A stretch of 33,110 nt of DNA from Caldisericum sp. CG2_30_36_11 (lineage in GTDB: Bacteria; Caldisericota; Caldisericia; Caldisericales; Caldisericaceae), in assembly GCA_001871575.1 (NCBI GenBank), contig MNXV01000070.1, positions 1 through 33,110 of the forward strand. Direction: 5' to 3'. Shown piece after piece: positions 1,405-22,185 of this stretch. The number at the start of each line of letters is the position of its first letter. The first letter of the stretch is position 1. Made by a program: the position numbers and the translations under genes. The notes beneath the pieces were generated by a model. It had not been told where the DNA came from. It did no database searches and saw only the letters and a program-made list of their open reading frames with translations.

Positions 1405-1935
1405 ATGGAAGAAAAAGAGATAATTGAGAGACTCAAAAAGGGAGATATTACTGCAAAAGAATGTTTTGTCCGTGAATATCAAAACCTTATTTTTAATGCT
1501 ATATTTCAGGTTTCAAGGGATAGGGTAATTACAGAGGACGTCCTTCAAGAGACTTTTCTCAGGGCTTTTAAGTACATAAAGGGGTTTAAGGGTGAGGCAA
1601 ATATTACGACCTGGTTATATAGAATCGCAATGAATACATTAAAAGATGAGTTTAAGAAACGTAAAGCCGTTAATATGCTTGATAATCCTATTTCTGAAGA
1701 CATTCCTATTGAATATTCGTTCGACGAAAAGAAAAAGATTATATGGGAAGGTTTGAAGCGTTTGAGTGAAAACGAGCGTGAAATTATTACTCTTGTGGAC
1801 ATTCGTGGATTTTCTTATGAAGAAACTGCAAAGATGCTTGATGTGCTTGTTGGAACTGTGCGCTCGAGGTTGGCAAGGTCGAGAGAGCACTTGCGTGATG
1901 AAATTCTGAAAATGGATTTTTTTGACAAAATTTAA
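1405..1935 (+). CDS. ECF-type RNA polymerase sigma factor (sigma-70 family)
   Basis: Sigma-70 region 2 (EDVLQETFLRAFKYIKGFKGEANITTWLYRIAMN) and region 4 (REIITLVDIRGFSYEETAKMLDVLVGTVRSRLARSREHLR). Confidence 0.93.
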   Translation: MEEKEIIERLKKGDITAKECFVREYQNLIFNAIFQVSRDRVITEDVLQETFLRAFKYIKGFKGEANITTWLYRIAMNTLKDEFKKRKAVNMLDNPISEDIPIEYSFDEKKKIIWEGLKRLSENEREIITLVDIRGFSYEETAKMLDVLVGTVRSRLARSREHLRDEILKMDFFDKI

Positions 1936-15751: not shown

Positions 15752-15801
15752 TTTATATTATATAGATTTATAATAGTATGTATAATTAATAGAGGTGATT
15801 G

Positions 15802-17571
15802 ATGGATAACTCTTTCCTTAGTTCTATCTTTACACGCGGAAAGCTTTATATACAGCTTCTACAGTCATTAACTGTTATTATTACAGCGGCATTTATTCTT
15901 ACACAAACCTTTATCACCAGAGTTCTTTTTAATCTTGAGGAGTCGGTTAAAAAACAAATTTTTTTGGGCATATTCTTTGGGCTAATTTCAATCACAGGGA
16001 CATACCTCGGGGTAAATATTAATGATGCAATTGCAAATGTGAGGGATATCGGTGCTATAACAGGTGGTCTTTTTGGTGGGCCTCTTGTGGGTGCTATTGC
16101 TGGACTAATGGGTGGAGTGCATCGTGCATCTTTGGGAGGGTTCACCGCGAATTCATGTGCTCTCGCAACTATAATAAATGGTGTTGCCGCCGGGTTTCTT
16201 TATAGATTGAGAAGAGGAAAGATTTTTTCACCACTTGCAGGGTTTTTTTTCGCAGCAGCAGCGGAATCCTGCCATATGCTTCTCGTTCTTCTTATTACAG
16301 AGCCATTTAATCAGGCACTTGCTCTTGTGCGGCAAGTAAGCGGTCCGATGATCCTTACAAATGCAGTTGGTGTAGGGCTTTTCCTTCTTGTAATACAAGT
16401 ATCAATGAGAGAAAGGGAATTGGTTTCAGCGATTACTGCTGAAACTGTGCTCAAGATTACAGAAAAAACACTGCCCGTTTTAAGCAAAGGGCTTACAACG
16501 GAAACCGCAGACATAGCAGCTAAAATTATTTTGAAATATACAAATCTTGATGCAGTTGGCATTACAGACAGGAATAAGATTCTTGCATTTAGAGGGCTTG
16601 GGGAAGACCATCATATAGCAAATGGCTCGTTCAGGACATCTTCCACAAAAAGAGTTTTGAAATCAGGAGAAATTGCATTTTTAAGAAACAAAAGTGATAT
16701 AGATTGTGAAGAAAAGAGTTGTCCTCTTGGTTCAGGTGTAGTAGTTCCTATGAAAAGCGCAGATGAAGAAATTTTTGGTGCCCTCAAACTTTATAGAAGA
16801 CATAGCGACGCAATGAGTCCTTTTGACATCGAAATTGCAAAAGGACTTGCAACAATTCTTACTACACAGATCGAATTAAACCAGATAGAAGAAGAAAAAA
16901 AGCTAAGAATCGTATCCCAGTTGAAAGCTCTTCAGGCCTATGTAAATCCACACTTTCTTTTCAATGCTCTTAATACTATTTCGTATATCGTAAGGCAGGA
17001 TCCAGAAAGAGGGAGACACCTCATACAAAAACTCAGTTATATCCTAAGAGAGACGATCTATAGAGTTTCAGACCTTGTAGATTTAAAAGAGGAGATTTGT
17101 CTTGTTAAGTCATATCTTGAGATAGAAAAAGAAAGGTTTGGGGAGTGCCTTGAATATGAATTTCATATTGACGATAAACTTCTTGATGTAAAAATCCCGT
17201 CATTTACCTTGCAACCAATCGTTGAAAACTCAGTTAAGCACGGTTATTCCACGGATATAAGGAAGATAAAGATAGATATTTCCGCATATTTAAAGTTAAA
17301 TATGCTTTATTTTGTAGTATCTGATACAGGGAGAGGAATCCCAAAAGATAAATTGAAGGATTTACTTCAGGGCTGTGATAAAAATTCAATCGGCATTAAA
17401 AATGTTTTTGAAAGGTTAAAGAATCTTTATGGATTGAAAGCTGTGTTTAAGGTGAAGAGTGTTCCGGGCAAGGGAACGAGAGTTGTAATTGCAATACCAA
17501 TAGAAGGAGTGAAAGATTGGCTATTAGAACAGTTATCGTTGACGACGAAAAACCTTCAAGAGAAGAGATAA
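15802..17571 (+). CDS. LytS/YehU(BtsS)-type sensor histidine kinase
   Basis: N-terminal 5TM-Lyt-like domain, GAF-like region, His_kinase motif QLKALQAYVNPHFLFNALNTISYIVRQ, ATPase motifs VENSVKHG, DTGRGIPKD. Confidence 0.92.
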   Translation: MDNSFLSSIFTRGKLYIQLLQSLTVIITAAFILTQTFITRVLFNLEESVKKQIFLGIFFGLISITGTYLGVNINDAIANVRDIGAITGGLFGGPLVGAIAGLMGGVHRASLGGFTANSCALATIINGVAAGFLYRLRRGKIFSPLAGFFFAAAAESCHMLLVLLITEPFNQALALVRQVSGPMILTNAVGVGLFLLVIQVSMRERELVSAITAETVLKITEKTLPVLSKGLTTETADIAAKIILKYTNLDAVGITDRNKILAFRGLGEDHHIANGSFRTSSTKRVLKSGEIAFLRNKSDIDCEEKSCPLGSGVVVPMKSADEEIFGALKLYRRHSDAMSPFDIEIAKGLATILTTQIELNQIEEEKKLRIVSQLKALQAYVNPHFLFNALNTISYIVRQDPERGRHLIQKLSYILRETIYRVSDLVDLKEEICLVKSYLEIEKERFGECLEYEFHIDDKLLDVKIPSFTLQPIVENSVKHGYSTDIRKIKIDISAYLKLNMLYFVVSDTGRGIPKDKLKDLLQGCDKNSIGIKNVFERLKNLYGLKAVFKVKSVPGKGTRVVIAIPIEGVKDWLLEQLSLTTKNLQEKR

Positions 17572-18230
17572 AACTTTTTTTAAAGAGGTTTCCAAATTTT
17601 GAGCTTTCAGGTGAATTTGATAATGCATTTGACGCACTGAGTTTTATGGTATCCACAACTGTTGATGTTGCCTTTTTTGATATCAATATGCCTGGTTTTG
17701 ATGGAATTCGTCTTGCAGAAGTTCTAAAGGGTACCGAGAATTCCCCTGTTATCGTATTCGTGACCGCGTATTCAGAACATGCGGTAAAGGCATTTGAAGT
17801 TGATGCCGTTGACTATATCCTCAAGCCCATTGACGAGGGGCGTTTTGTAAAAACCCTTGCAAAGATAAGCTCAAAAGTAAAAGGGAAGACACCGCCTAAC
17901 CTTAATTTTGTGGTTTGCGAATTTCAGGGAGAGTTAATACTGCTTAAACCGGAGGACGTTCAATACTTTTATGTGGAAAAGGGAAAATTATTTGTAAGGA
18001 AGAAAAGCGAATCACTCCCGGTAAAAGGCATGAATCTTCAAAACGCTGAAAAAAGATTTGTTTCTCAAAACTTTTTCAGAATAAATAAGGAATATATAAT
18101 AAATTTATCTAAAGTGTCCAAAATTATACCATGGTTTAAGGGAAAATATCTTATTCAGATGGAAAATGGAGATAAACTTCCTCTTTCGCCGCACCATCAG
18201 AAAGAATTCAGAGATAGATTTCGCTTTTGA
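17517..18230 (+). CDS. LytTR-family response regulator
   Basis: Receiver domain (TVIVDDEKPSREEI, FFDINMPGFDG, VTAYSEHAVKAFEVDAVDYILKPI) and C-terminal LytTR domain (FFRINKEYIINLSKVSKI...SPHHQKEFRDRF). TTG start preceded by AGGAG. Confidence 0.92.
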   Translation: MAIRTVIVDDEKPSREEIKLFLKRFPNFELSGEFDNAFDALSFMVSTTVDVAFFDINMPGFDGIRLAEVLKGTENSPVIVFVTAYSEHAVKAFEVDAVDYILKPIDEGRFVKTLAKISSKVKGKTPPNLNFVVCEFQGELILLKPEDVQYFYVEKGKLFVRKKSESLPVKGMNLQNAEKRFVSQNFFRINKEYIINLSKVSKIIPWFKGKYLIQMENGDKLPLSPHHQKEFRDRFRF

Positions 18231-18325: not shown

Positions 18326-18353
18326 TTGACAGTCGCGTAATAAGTTATATAAT
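18326..18353 (+). promoter_or_regulatory. Sigma-A-type promoter upstream of cstA
   Basis: TTGACA (18326-18331), 16-nt spacer, TATAAT (18348-18353). Confidence 0.75.
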
Positions 18354-18477
18354 ATTATAGAGTTATTGTGTAGTTTTTTAAAAATCTTACGGAGGAGGTG
18401 GATAAAACAACAAAAACCTTCGAAAATTATTTAAGTTTAGACTGGAAAAGCAAAATTTAAGTAAAAGGAGGTATTAG

Positions 18478-20256
18478 ATGACAGCATTGATAGTGTTGAT
18501 TGGTGGAGCAATTTATCTGTTTTTCTATTTCACCTATGGAAGAAAGCTTCAAAGTGAGGTTGTAAGAGCAGACAAAGATAGACTAACACCAGCAGTAAGG
18601 CTCAGAGACAATGTGGACTACATGCCTGGGCAAAAGATGGTTGTATTCGGGCACCACTTTGCGTCAATTGCAGGTGCGGGTCCAATTGTCGGTCCTGCAA
18701 TTGCACTGGCATGGGGATGGCTTCCTGCACTTCTCTGGGTATGGTTTGGAAACGTATTTATCGGTGGTGTTCATGATTATCTTTCCCTCATGGCATCTGT
18801 CAGGTATGATGGAAAGTCAATTCAATGGGTTGCAGGGAAGGTTATGCACCCGAGGACGAAGTATATTTTTGAAATTTTTGTTTTCTTTGCTTTAATTCTT
18901 GTAATCGCAGCATTTGAAGGCGTCTTTGCGCGTCTTGCATCAACTAACCCTACAGTTGGAACTTCTTCTTTCCTATTCCTGGTTATCGCAGTTATTGAAG
19001 GGTTGCTTCTCTATAAAACTAAACTTTCATTCAGGGTTGCATCAATTATCGGTGTGTTAATGCTTATTGGTGCAGTGGTAATAGGATTTGTATGGCCGTT
19101 CCTTGCTTTTACAAGCGTTAAGACCTGGTATGTACTTCAGTTCATTTATATAATTTTCGCTGCATCTCTACCTGTATGGATTCTCTTACAGCCAAGAGAT
19201 TATCTTAACTCGTATTTACTCTGGTTTGGACTTGCTCTTGGTGGCGTTGCTGCCCTTATTGCATTTAAAGGGTTCTCATGGCCAGCGTTTACCACTTTCA
19301 GTGCAGCTACGATAGTAGCAGGTAAGCCTGCGCCATTCTGGCCGGCAGTTCCCCTTGTTATTGCATGTGGTGCACTTTCAGGATTCCATTCTATTGTTGC
19401 TTCAGGCACCGTGTCAAAACAGCTTGATAATGAATTGAGTGGCCTTTTTGTTGGATATGGCGCGATGTTCACGGAAGGGTTCCTTTCAACGATTGTTATA
19501 ACTTCAATTTGTGCATTTGGCTTTACTGTACTTGCAAATTTTAAAGAAGCAGTTACTGCGGCAGGAGTCAATCTGGATCAATTTATATTGGGTGGTAAAT
19601 ACCTTGGCGATTCTTATATCGTGGCAAGCGGTGCTAAAGGAGTTGGCGGAGCGGCGGGAATGTTTACAAAATCTTATGGAGAAATGGTTAAAGTTTTAGG
19701 CGTACCTGCTAAAATTGGAGCAACATTCGCGGGATTATGGGTCTCTGCATTTATTCTTACCACTCTTGATACAGCTACAAGGCTTGGAAGATTTGCATGG
19801 CAGGAACTGTTTGAGTTCACTAAAAAAAGTTCTGCGGGTTTTCACGCATTTATCACGAATAGGTGGCTTGCATCATTAATTCCTGCGGCTGTGGGTACAT
19901 GGCTTGTATGGTATGGAGGATATGCTGTGTTATGGCCTGGCTTTGCGGGTTCTAACCAGTTGCTTGCATCCATTGCGTTACTTACGGCAACACTCTGGGT
20001 TAAGAACGTGCAGATGGTAAAAAGGTCATTCCAGCTGTTGGTTCTTATTCCCGCGCTTGCACTCTGGATAACCGTGTTCTCAGGACTTGTCTGGTTTGTA
20101 ATTGTTATCGTTCCCTCGCTTAAAGCACAAATCAGATTTGCTATGTATTCATTTGTAATATTAATGCTTGTCCTTGCAGTTGTTCTTCTTATCGATTTCT
20201 TTGCAGCCTACAGGAGAGGACCACTTCCTGAGGCAAAAGCAGAAGCTGCTAAATAG
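18478..20256 (+). CDS. cstA: CstA-family carbon starvation / peptide or pyruvate transporter
   Basis: CstA motifs VRADKDRLTPAVRLRDNVDYMPGQKMVVFGHHFASIAGAGPIVGPAIA, GGVHDYLSLMASVRYDGKS; SD AAAGGAGG. Confidence 0.94.
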   Translation: MTALIVLIGGAIYLFFYFTYGRKLQSEVVRADKDRLTPAVRLRDNVDYMPGQKMVVFGHHFASIAGAGPIVGPAIALAWGWLPALLWVWFGNVFIGGVHDYLSLMASVRYDGKSIQWVAGKVMHPRTKYIFEIFVFFALILVIAAFEGVFARLASTNPTVGTSSFLFLVIAVIEGLLLYKTKLSFRVASIIGVLMLIGAVVIGFVWPFLAFTSVKTWYVLQFIYIIFAASLPVWILLQPRDYLNSYLLWFGLALGGVAALIAFKGFSWPAFTTFSAATIVAGKPAPFWPAVPLVIACGALSGFHSIVASGTVSKQLDNELSGLFVGYGAMFTEGFLSTIVITSICAFGFTVLANFKEAVTAAGVNLDQFILGGKYLGDSYIVASGAKGVGGAAGMFTKSYGEMVKVLGVPAKIGATFAGLWVSAFILTTLDTATRLGRFAWQELFEFTKKSSAGFHAFITNRWLASLIPAAVGTWLVWYGGYAVLWPGFAGSNQLLASIALLTATLWVKNVQMVKRSFQLLVLIPALALWITVFSGLVWFVIVIVPSLKAQIRFAMYSFVILMLVLAVVLLIDFFAAYRRGPLPEAKAEAAK

Positions 20257-20531
20257 TGAAGTTATTTGAAAGAATAAGAAAGTTTTTTATAGGAGTTGAA
20301 AGCGGTATGAGGGAGACTTCGGTCTCCCTCATTGAACGAGAACTTGAAGAGTACGAAAATATTTTTTCCCTTCTTACAATGGGAATATTTGCAGGAATTC
20401 CTTCTCCCCCGACAGGCATAGTAATACGTATCCTTCCCTATATGCAGAGAGAAGTGTCTGTCATGATGAAAAAAACTAAAGACCTGTCCGATGCTTTTGG
20501 AGATACGGCAGGCATGTTTGATATCACTTAG
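20256..20531 (+). CDS. 91-aa conserved-looking hypothetical protein, translationally coupled to cstA
   Basis: GTG start overlaps the cstA TAG stop (TAGTG); uninterrupted ORF in a tight operon; alternative ATG start at 20307. Not recognisably YbdD/YjiX-like. Confidence 0.6.
   Translation: MKLFERIRKFFIGVESGMRETSVSLIERELEEYENIFSLLTMGIFAGIPSPPTGIVIRILPYMQREVSVMMKKTKDLSDAFGDTAGMFDIT
20307..20332. promoter_or_regulatory. 11-bp perfect RNA hairpin with C(UUCG)G tetraloop
   Basis: ATGAGGGAGAC-TTCG-GTCTCCCTCAT read directly; no T-run follows, so not a canonical terminator. Confidence 0.85.
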
Positions 20532-20554: not shown

Positions 20555-21511
20555 ATGAAAGTATATTTCTTTCTTGGAAAGGGTGGAGTAGGAAAAACAA
20601 CTATATCGGCGGCATTTGGGACAGGTCTATCGAAAAATGGTCATAAAGTCATAGTTGTTTCAATTGATCCTGCTCATAACCTTGGCGATGCATTTGATAC
20701 TACTCTTTCTAATAGAGAATTAAAGATAAATGAAAATCTTTACGCAGTAGAAGTTGATATTGAGAAAATGACCCGTGAATACCTTGATGACCTCTCAAAA
20801 AAGATGCAGCATACTTACAGATATCTTACTGCAATGAATCTTGATAGATATTTTAATATCCTTAAACTTTCCCCTGGAATTGAAGAATATGCAACACTCG
20901 AGGCAATAAGGAAATACATCGGCTCAAAGAATTTTGATACAGTCATATTTGATACACCTCCTACTGGAATTACATTGAGAGTCCTTGCAATGCCCAGACT
21001 TTCAGTTCTTTGGTCTGAAAGGCTTATTTCTATGAGGAAAGCAATTCTTTCAAGGAGAAAGATGGTCGAAAATGTTAAAGGAAAAGTTGAAGCAGAGGTC
21101 GAAGGCGAAAAAATTGTTTTGACATCGGATGAAAAGGAAGATGAAATAATGCAGGAACTCATAAAATATCGAGAGGAAATGCTTGAACTGAACAAGTTAT
21201 TTTCTTCTACATCCTGTGAGGTTCATATTGTAACAATGGCAGAAGAACTTGCCTTGCTTGAAACTGAAAGAATTTTGAAATCCCTCTCAATTTTTAGTAT
21301 AACGGCGAAAGTGATATACTTGAATAAATTTATGAAGATTGAAAATCCTCCTGAGGAGATTGCCGGTAAAATTCACGAGCAAGAGCAGGTTGTAACAGAA
21401 ATGAGAGAAAAATTTAAACATCTGTTTATAAAGGAAGTCCCGCTTTTGAGGGCTTCTCCGAGAGGAATTAGAGACCTTCTTTCTGTGTATGAATCTTATA
21501 TAGTGAGGTAG
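20555..21511 (+). CDS. ArsA/Get3-family ATPase, single P-loop domain
   Basis: Deviant Walker A GKGGVGKTTISAAFG, SIDPAHNLGDAF, FDTPPTGITLRVLAMP. Confidence 0.92.
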   Translation: MKVYFFLGKGGVGKTTISAAFGTGLSKNGHKVIVVSIDPAHNLGDAFDTTLSNRELKINENLYAVEVDIEKMTREYLDDLSKKMQHTYRYLTAMNLDRYFNILKLSPGIEEYATLEAIRKYIGSKNFDTVIFDTPPTGITLRVLAMPRLSVLWSERLISMRKAILSRRKMVENVKGKVEAEVEGEKIVLTSDEKEDEIMQELIKYREEMLELNKLFSSTSCEVHIVTMAEELALLETERILKSLSIFSITAKVIYLNKFMKIENPPEEIAGKIHEQEQVVTEMREKFKHLFIKEVPLLRASPRGIRDLLSVYESYIVR

Positions 21512-21513
21512 AG

Positions 21514-22185
21514 ATGATCGGAAATGTGCAGAGCAGTATAATCATTATAATAGTTGTGCTTGCTGGTATTGCAGTTCTTCAGTTCCAAAAAGGAAGAAAA
21601 ATCAATGTTGCCCTTATGAAAACTTTTATTAGGGGTTTCGAAGAAAAACTCAAACTCTCAGATAAAACTTATGTATATCTGGGAGGTTATCTCGGGTTTA
21701 AAGCGGAGTATGACCTTGAAAATAAGCTTTCAAAACGCATCGAGATAACGTTAACATTAATACCTCGGCAGAGTGTTTTCTATTTACCTATCACTTTTCT
21801 TATAAAGAAAACTGATAGGCTTTATGTTGTCATAAGACCAAATTTTAAAATTCACACTGACGCTCATATTGTTAAAAAACATTTTTACTGGCTTGGACTC
21901 GATATTGATGAGGAAGCCGAACTTGAAAAAAAGGATTTGACTCTCAAAGGCAAAGAATTTTTAACTCTTTATAGAAGAAAAAGCGACGTTGATAAGTTAA
22001 AAGAACTTGTAAATAAATGTATACCATCTGAAAGATTGTTTCACATTGCCCTGGTCAACAAGACAAATGTATTTTACTGTCTTATGAGGCCAGATCCTCT
22101 TAAAACGCCGGAAGAGATAAGAAAACTTGTTGAGTATTTACCCAGAGTAATCTACGAAAAGGAAAAGCTCAGAGACTTTCAGTAA
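21514..22185 (+). CDS. Hypothetical protein with N-terminal membrane anchor, operonic with the ArsA-like ATPase
   Basis: Starts 3 nt after the ArsA stop; N-terminal hydrophobic segment SSIIIIIVVLAGIAVLQF then a soluble domain of unknown family. Confidence 0.65.
   Translation: MIGNVQSSIIIIIVVLAGIAVLQFQKGRKINVALMKTFIRGFEEKLKLSDKTYVYLGGYLGFKAEYDLENKLSKRIEITLTLIPRQSVFYLPITFLIKKTDRLYVVIRPNFKIHTDAHIVKKHFYWLGLDIDEEAELEKKDLTLKGKEFLTLYRRKSDVDKLKELVNKCIPSERLFHIALVNKTNVFYCLMRPDPLKTPEEIRKLVEYLPRVIYEKEKLRDFQ

Follow-up and report, generated by a model that had tools for sequence, protein, structure and literature searches.

What does a perfect hairpin do inside the coding sequence of the gene that follows cstA? 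The window (the whole stretch of DNA that was analysed, 33,110 nucleotides of Caldisericum sp. CG2_30_36_11) contains such a structure at positions 20307-20332 of the forward (+) strand, where ATGAGGGAGAC-TTCG-GTCTCCCTCAT is an exact match to a perfect 11-bp inverted repeat. The first-pass annotation had reported this repeat, its TTCG loop closed by a C-G pair, its position about 50 nt past the cstA stop codon, an AGGAG motif 11 nt before an internal ATG and the lack of a following U-tract, all of which were confirmed. The hairpin begins 50 nt past the end of the stop codon (20256) and has no U-tract on either strand; the tail reads TGAACGAG. It had been placed inside or at the start of the open reading frame; it lies inside, 51-77 nt into the frame, and not at the start. 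The features of the locus are as follows.

18326 to 18353, + strand: likely promoter of the cstA operon, TTGACA-16-TATAAT, 12/12 consensus positions, assigned by consensus match only
18466 to 18471, + strand: strong Shine-Dalgarno sequence of cstA, AGGAGG, from the sequence
18478 to 20256, + strand: cstA, CstA-family (pyruvate/peptide) transporter (PF02554, E = 6.8e-125)
20256 to 20531, + strand: cstX, conserved 91-aa protein, host gene of the hairpin, from its orthologs
20291 to 20295, + strand: AGGAG, 11 nt 5' of the internal ATG, not conserved and probably incidental
20307 to 20332, + strand: conserved 11-bp hairpin, cstX codons 18-26, from sequence, fold, uniqueness and 16 orthologs
20307 to 20317, + strand: 5' arm, ATGAGGGAGAC, from sequence and pair counts
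20318 to 20321, + strand: loop TTCG, closed by C-G, variable in sequence and length among orthologs
20322 to 20332, + strand: 3' arm, GTCTCCCTCAT, with no U-tract after it
20555 to 21511, + strand: single-domain ArsA/Get3-type ATPase (PF02374, E = 5.2e-67; TIGR00345)
21514 to 22185, + strand: cstY-like protein with an N-terminal membrane segment, found downstream of arsA in most loci (name from PMC2963123)

The cstA-cstX-arsA-cstY set was described by bioinformatics in 2010 (PMC2963123), and the names cstX and cstY were assigned here by gene position and size, after that report. Translation of cstA starts at an ATG preceded by AGGAGG, whereas cstX has a GTG start codon with no evident Shine-Dalgarno sequence, which overlaps the cstA stop codon (TAG, 20254-20256) by 1 nt. 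No promoter-like site was detected on the + strand between the cstA promoter and position 20841, and cstX is therefore probably read from the cstA transcript. Orthologs of cstX were present in 16 of 54 Caldisericota genomes (Caldisericum and Candidatus Cryosericum being the named relatives, the others assigned to Caldisericota), in every case between cstA and the gene for an ArsA-type ATPase. The 91-aa frame is a real gene. More distant homologs were found with an alignment-based contig search, a single-protein query having given none; they occur in Thermococcus, Desulfurococcales, Archaeoglobus, Spirochaetes, Nitrospirota and Desulfobacterota, with nearly always the same neighbours. The invariant core of CstX starts near residue 30. 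Searches of Pfam and NCBIfam returned no model that covers CstX or CstY, although many bacteria and archaea have the module.

Other features of these loci were also recorded. Directly 5' of cstA the window encodes a LytS-type sensor histidine kinase and a LytTR regulator (15799-18230); the best NCBIfam match of the regulator, below the cut-off, was BtsR, and the arrangement with cstA resembles the BtsSR-BtsT pyruvate system of E. coli. In family f3 an extra open reading frame of about 97 aa (MKTKGDEDLIKRIKKILSKI..., L007 2742-3032; also in L003, L004, L005 and L010), with no Pfam match, lies between arsA and cstY. A diverged cstA-cstX-arsA set is present in three Caldisericota genomes (G004, G005 and G009; loci L018 and L019-L021), L018 belonging to a different genus of the phylum.

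The hairpin is rare for its genome in strength and unique in sequence. It occurred once in the window, even when three mismatches were allowed, and 100 dinucleotide-shuffled versions of the window did not contain it at the same tolerance; its central 18 nt were single copy in the 1.22-Mb genome at up to two mismatches. The 161-nt RNA around it gave a folding z of -2.4. A survey of perfect stems (at least 10 bp, at least 4 G-C pairs) in the window and 400 kb from the genome of a relative, G007, found 19, of which just three fell within reading frames of at least 80 aa: the cstX hairpin, its ortholog in G007 and one copy of a dispersed repeat; perfect stems of such size are otherwise almost absent from reading frames in the 400 kb of G007. 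The single copy, seen both in the genome search and with a covariance model, ruled out a REP/BIME-like repeat or mobile element. A known Rfam family was likewise rejected, as one tRNA was the only match in the window at gathering score. A non-coding perfect hairpin of 12 bp, TAAAAGAGGGCGTTGACGCCCTCTTTTA, is present at 2800-2827 of the window, and non-coding stretches of G007 contain similar perfect hairpins with no trailing U-run.

Conservation was then considered within the phylum. The hairpin was kept at the same codons in all 16 Caldisericota cstX orthologs, which fall into three families. Among the 15 distinct sequences used for the covariation counts, 92% of stem cells were paired and compensatory, both-sided changes had occurred in 5 of the 11 stem pairs. 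None of 500 column shuffles matched the observed pairing, which fell to 43-62% when the partner register was slid by 1-3 columns. Pairs 3, 6 and 9, which set a third codon position opposite another third codon position, had zero mismatches and showed wobble-wobble swaps (ATG/CTC versus TTA/CTT, AGG/TCC versus AGA/TCT, and GAG/NNC versus GAA/NNT), with one change event each on the protein tree; pair 10 had changed at least five times and was nonetheless paired in 14 of 15 sequences. The covariance model gave a single confident site in each genome with the gene, in every case within cstX; in genomes with no cstX it gave three marginal matches only, at chance level (E 0.04-0.09). Predicted stem stability ranged from -11 to -27 kcal/mol at 37 C. 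Inspection by eye showed no conserved stretch upstream with complementarity to the stem that could serve as a switch partner.

Two features to which the earlier annotation had attached importance did not survive this comparison. Sequestration of a start codon was rejected: the real cstX start lies 51 nt upstream, the AGGAG is not conserved and the internal ATG is replaced by TTA in five orthologs, all of one family, so it is not a start. The UUCG tetraloop is incidental, because the loops vary among orthologs (TTCG, TTCT, TTCA and longer ones, 4-8 nt in all) and C(UUCG)G occurs only in the window and G013, the other orthologs having different closing pairs or loops. The window and G013 (L008) share an identical 26-nt hairpin, although the operon tree places the two on separate branches and the flanks are not the same.

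Selection on the RNA beyond the protein sequence was assessed with two codon tests. Permutation of synonymous codons in the Caldisericota cstX genes gave a mean z of about -3.5 at the hairpin, compared with about 0 over the remainder of cstX; in cstX homologs outside the phylum the mean was about 0 at the same place. In the second test, in which codons were drawn from each operon's own usage, the peptide alone was permissive, full core pairing (9/9) being reached in 2-18% of synonymous draws. Pairing as strong as that observed had P≤0.017 per ortholog and mostly P<0.001, values which come from related sequences and must not be multiplied. Since the stem covaries and synonymous codon choice maintains it, these results support the view that the hairpin is a selected RNA structure, as had been proposed; conservation was not confined to the amino acid level.

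The junction between cstA and cstX was also compared in other lineages. Among other bacteria, mainly Spirochaetes and Syntrophales, 56 loci have a spacer that is at least 40 nt long, and in 51 of them the spacer contains a strong hairpin shortly past the cstA stop codon, as judged by a score and threshold that were set after inspection of the data. Hairpins of the same strength were found at 0-7% of cstX-arsA junctions and in 0-2% of cstA coding windows. The spacer-less Caldisericota had a strong hairpin within cstX in 14 of 16 loci, the other two being slightly weaker, and so did two spacer-less Desulfobacterota loci (L057 and L076) and one Syntrophales locus (L085/L121); in the Syntrophaceae loci L056 and L084, which have spacers of 79-81 nt, the hairpin is in the spacer instead. 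The distance of the hairpin from the cstA stop codon was stable (group medians of 28-61 nt) and its distance from the cstX start was not. In the three lineages with coding-embedded hairpins these lie near cstX codons 17-29. A U-tract followed the spacer hairpin in 10 of 11 Spirochaetes and 13 of 40 Syntrophales, compared with 0 of 15 Caldisericota hairpins. A terminator-like hairpin, AAAGGGGGCACGTATGTGCCCCTTTT, is also present in the spacer right after the diverged cstA stop codon in L018 (about 1800-1850, minus strand).

The hairpin is not required for the cstA-cstX module, since the gene pair mostly lacks a strong hairpin in other spacer-less bacteria and almost always in archaea: none was found in 14 of 16 spacer-less loci of other bacteria (Nitrospirota, the Desulfurella group and others) or in 27 of the 28 loci from archaea. 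The idea of a deeply homologous RNA element common to all cstX genes was rejected, as no hairpin is present here in the archaeal homologs or in most of the others. What these data suggest, in our estimate with somewhat less than an even chance, is that genes for CstA-family transporters recurrently carry, across bacterial phyla, a selected hairpin at their 3' end, which was rebuilt inside cstX where the spacer was lost (in Caldisericota, one Desulfobacterales group and one Syntrophales genome), protein and RNA co-evolving through third codon positions. This alternation between spacer and coding sequence rests on three lineages, one of them with a single genome, and the taxonomic order around the Desulfobacterales locus was represented by three genomes, too few for covariation there.

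Taken as a whole, the evidence is best explained if the Caldisericota hairpin is a 3'-end element of cstA that is embedded in cstX and shields the cstA mRNA from 3'-5' decay, a reading to which we assign a probability of about 0.6. The hairpin would belong functionally to the 3' end of cstA, despite lying within the cstX coding sequence. An endonuclease, RNase Y, would cut the less translated distal part of the polycistronic cstA-cstX-arsA-cstY mRNA, and a 3'-5' exonuclease, PNPase, would degrade the RNA back to the hairpin and halt there, leaving a stable cstA message and the transporter in excess over its CstX, ArsA and CstY partners. Both enzymes are encoded in the genome, with matches above cut-off (914 bits for PNPase and 624 bits for RNase Y); no RNase R was found above cut-off. 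An exonuclease block is favoured over termination in Caldisericota by the difference in U-tracts from the Spirochaetes, and a benefit from excess transporter is suggested by the contrast between the initiation signals of cstA and cstX. We infer from the comparison, and for decay protection by analogy, the 3' ends at the hairpin, the differential decay and the stoichiometric benefit alike. The position from codon 18 would place the structure past the footprint of an initiating ribosome and before the invariant core of CstX. Several points argue against decay protection: the gene pair often occurs with no strong hairpin, ribosomes translating cstX must melt the hairpin, the Spirochaete spacer hairpins mostly have U-tracts and may be plain terminators, and the amino acids by themselves permit full core pairing in the fraction of draws given above. 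A literature search found no Caldisericum transcriptome. Differential expression of cstA and stabilisation of its mRNA 3' end were among the functions first proposed, and they remain the best-fitting reading because a hairpin recurs after the cstA stop codon in other phyla; this support is comparative.

Elements of this kind are known from E. coli, where RNA-seq and Term-seq placed 17 of the 26 hairpins that protect stabilised upstream genes within the downstream open reading frame (Dar & Sorek 2018, PMC5927463), 107 ± 56 nt into it, with no U-tract and with conservation at wobble positions. The cstX hairpin resembles these in being a stable structure in the coding sequence of the next gene, free of a U-tract and conserved at wobble positions, in a genome that encodes both an endonuclease and a processive 3'-5' exonuclease; its position (51-77 nt) compares with theirs. 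RNA ends and half-lives were measured for the E. coli cases, whereas the cstX hairpin is known from comparative sequence alone. Unlike them, it is conserved with covariation in three families and has spacer-borne counterparts at the same junction in other phyla. The malE-malF REP and puf stem-loops, cited in PMC5927463 as classic mRNA decay terminators, are also hairpins after a first gene that block 3'-5' exonucleases and set gene ratios; they differ in lying in intercistronic spacers, and REP is multicopy where the cstX hairpin is single copy. In the cip-cel operon (PMC4423207), RNA processing and stabilisation by stem-loops at the 3' ends of abundant genes likewise set subunit ratios, but these stem-loops are intergenic and have mapped processing sites. 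The kind of element is thus known from E. coli, and this case is new and unusually well and deeply conserved.

A transcription attenuator, at which RNA polymerase would pause or terminate, possibly with Rho, and read through in part into cstX-arsA-cstY, is an unlikely alternative. Terminator-like spacer hairpins with U-tracts, which predominate in Spirochaetes and make up about a third in Syntrophales, are in its favour, as is the Bacillus ars operon, in which an internal hairpin lowers read-through (PMC4562236). The ars operons also combine a transporter with an ArsA ATPase and have an arsC-arsD spacer hairpin and hairpins in the 5' coding regions of arsY and arsB that alter segmental RNA levels; their sequences and gene order are unrelated, however, and the spacer hairpin has a U-tract. 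Against attenuation in Caldisericota are the absence of U-tracts, a location in translated sequence, in which a ribosome following the polymerase would get in the way, and a terminator scan that found no intrinsic terminator at the site. A Rho-independent terminator, defined by a GC-rich stem and a U-run, was accordingly rejected, given the tail of the hairpin and the lack of U-tracts in its orthologs.

Less probable again is control of cstX translation, by early slowing of ribosomes or by binding of a regulator, perhaps CstX itself, that would set CstX synthesis or assembly. The common location of the coding-embedded hairpins of three lineages within cstX is consistent with such control and a stem of this strength could slow ribosomes, but where a spacer exists the hairpin is well upstream of cstX and tracks the cstA stop codon, and neither loop nor sequence is conserved as a protein-binding site would be. 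CsrA represses cstA in E. coli (PMC7730263); a search of the genome gave no gene for CsrA, and a CsrA site at the hairpin was rejected for that reason.

A palindrome acting as DNA, such as an operator or other site for a dimeric protein, is very improbable. Symmetric changes would be expected equally of a symmetric DNA site, but the one-sided changes in pairs 2-10 gave G-U on the sense strand in four cases, compared with a single A-C and a single A-G; in addition, the centre and loop are variable, there is one site per genome and the spacer hairpins of other phyla have no sequence in common with it. The least credible alternative, already disfavoured, is that the stem has no function as RNA and follows from codon bias and conservation of the peptide MRE..SLI, for although first and second codon positions are already partly complementary and yield 9/9 pairing in 2-18% of draws, the pair-strength P values are mostly <0.001 per ortholog, pairs 3, 6 and 9 covary wobble to wobble with no broken cell, and the peptide is not kept in homologs of other phyla.

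The hairpin is a clean natural case of an mRNA structure held in the coding sequence of a neighbouring gene by matched synonymous changes, with a role that is probably in operon stoichiometry; it spans a whole phylum, in the lineages of Caldisericum and Cryosericum. The alternation between spacer and coding sequence across phyla makes the exchange of spacing for an embedded structure directly testable, and codon-optimised recoding of cstX would erase a likely control element.

Hairpins were also seen at other positions and beside other CstA-family genes. Several cstX genes of the Desulfobacterota/Desulfurella type (L067, L071, L076, L091, L092, L095 and L097) contain strong hairpins at a later point, near codons 37-50 (the GIPSPP region), possibly with the same role elsewhere in cstX. 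The E. coli cstA-ybdD and btsT-yjiX spacers hold hairpins, with downstream genes that are not homologous to cstX. In strain K-12 the btsT-yjiX spacer (L190 1080-1130, minus strand) contains GCCCCGC-TTCG-GCGGGGC, and the cstA-ybdD spacer (L188 3500-3683) contains strong palindromes, one of which resembles a REP element.
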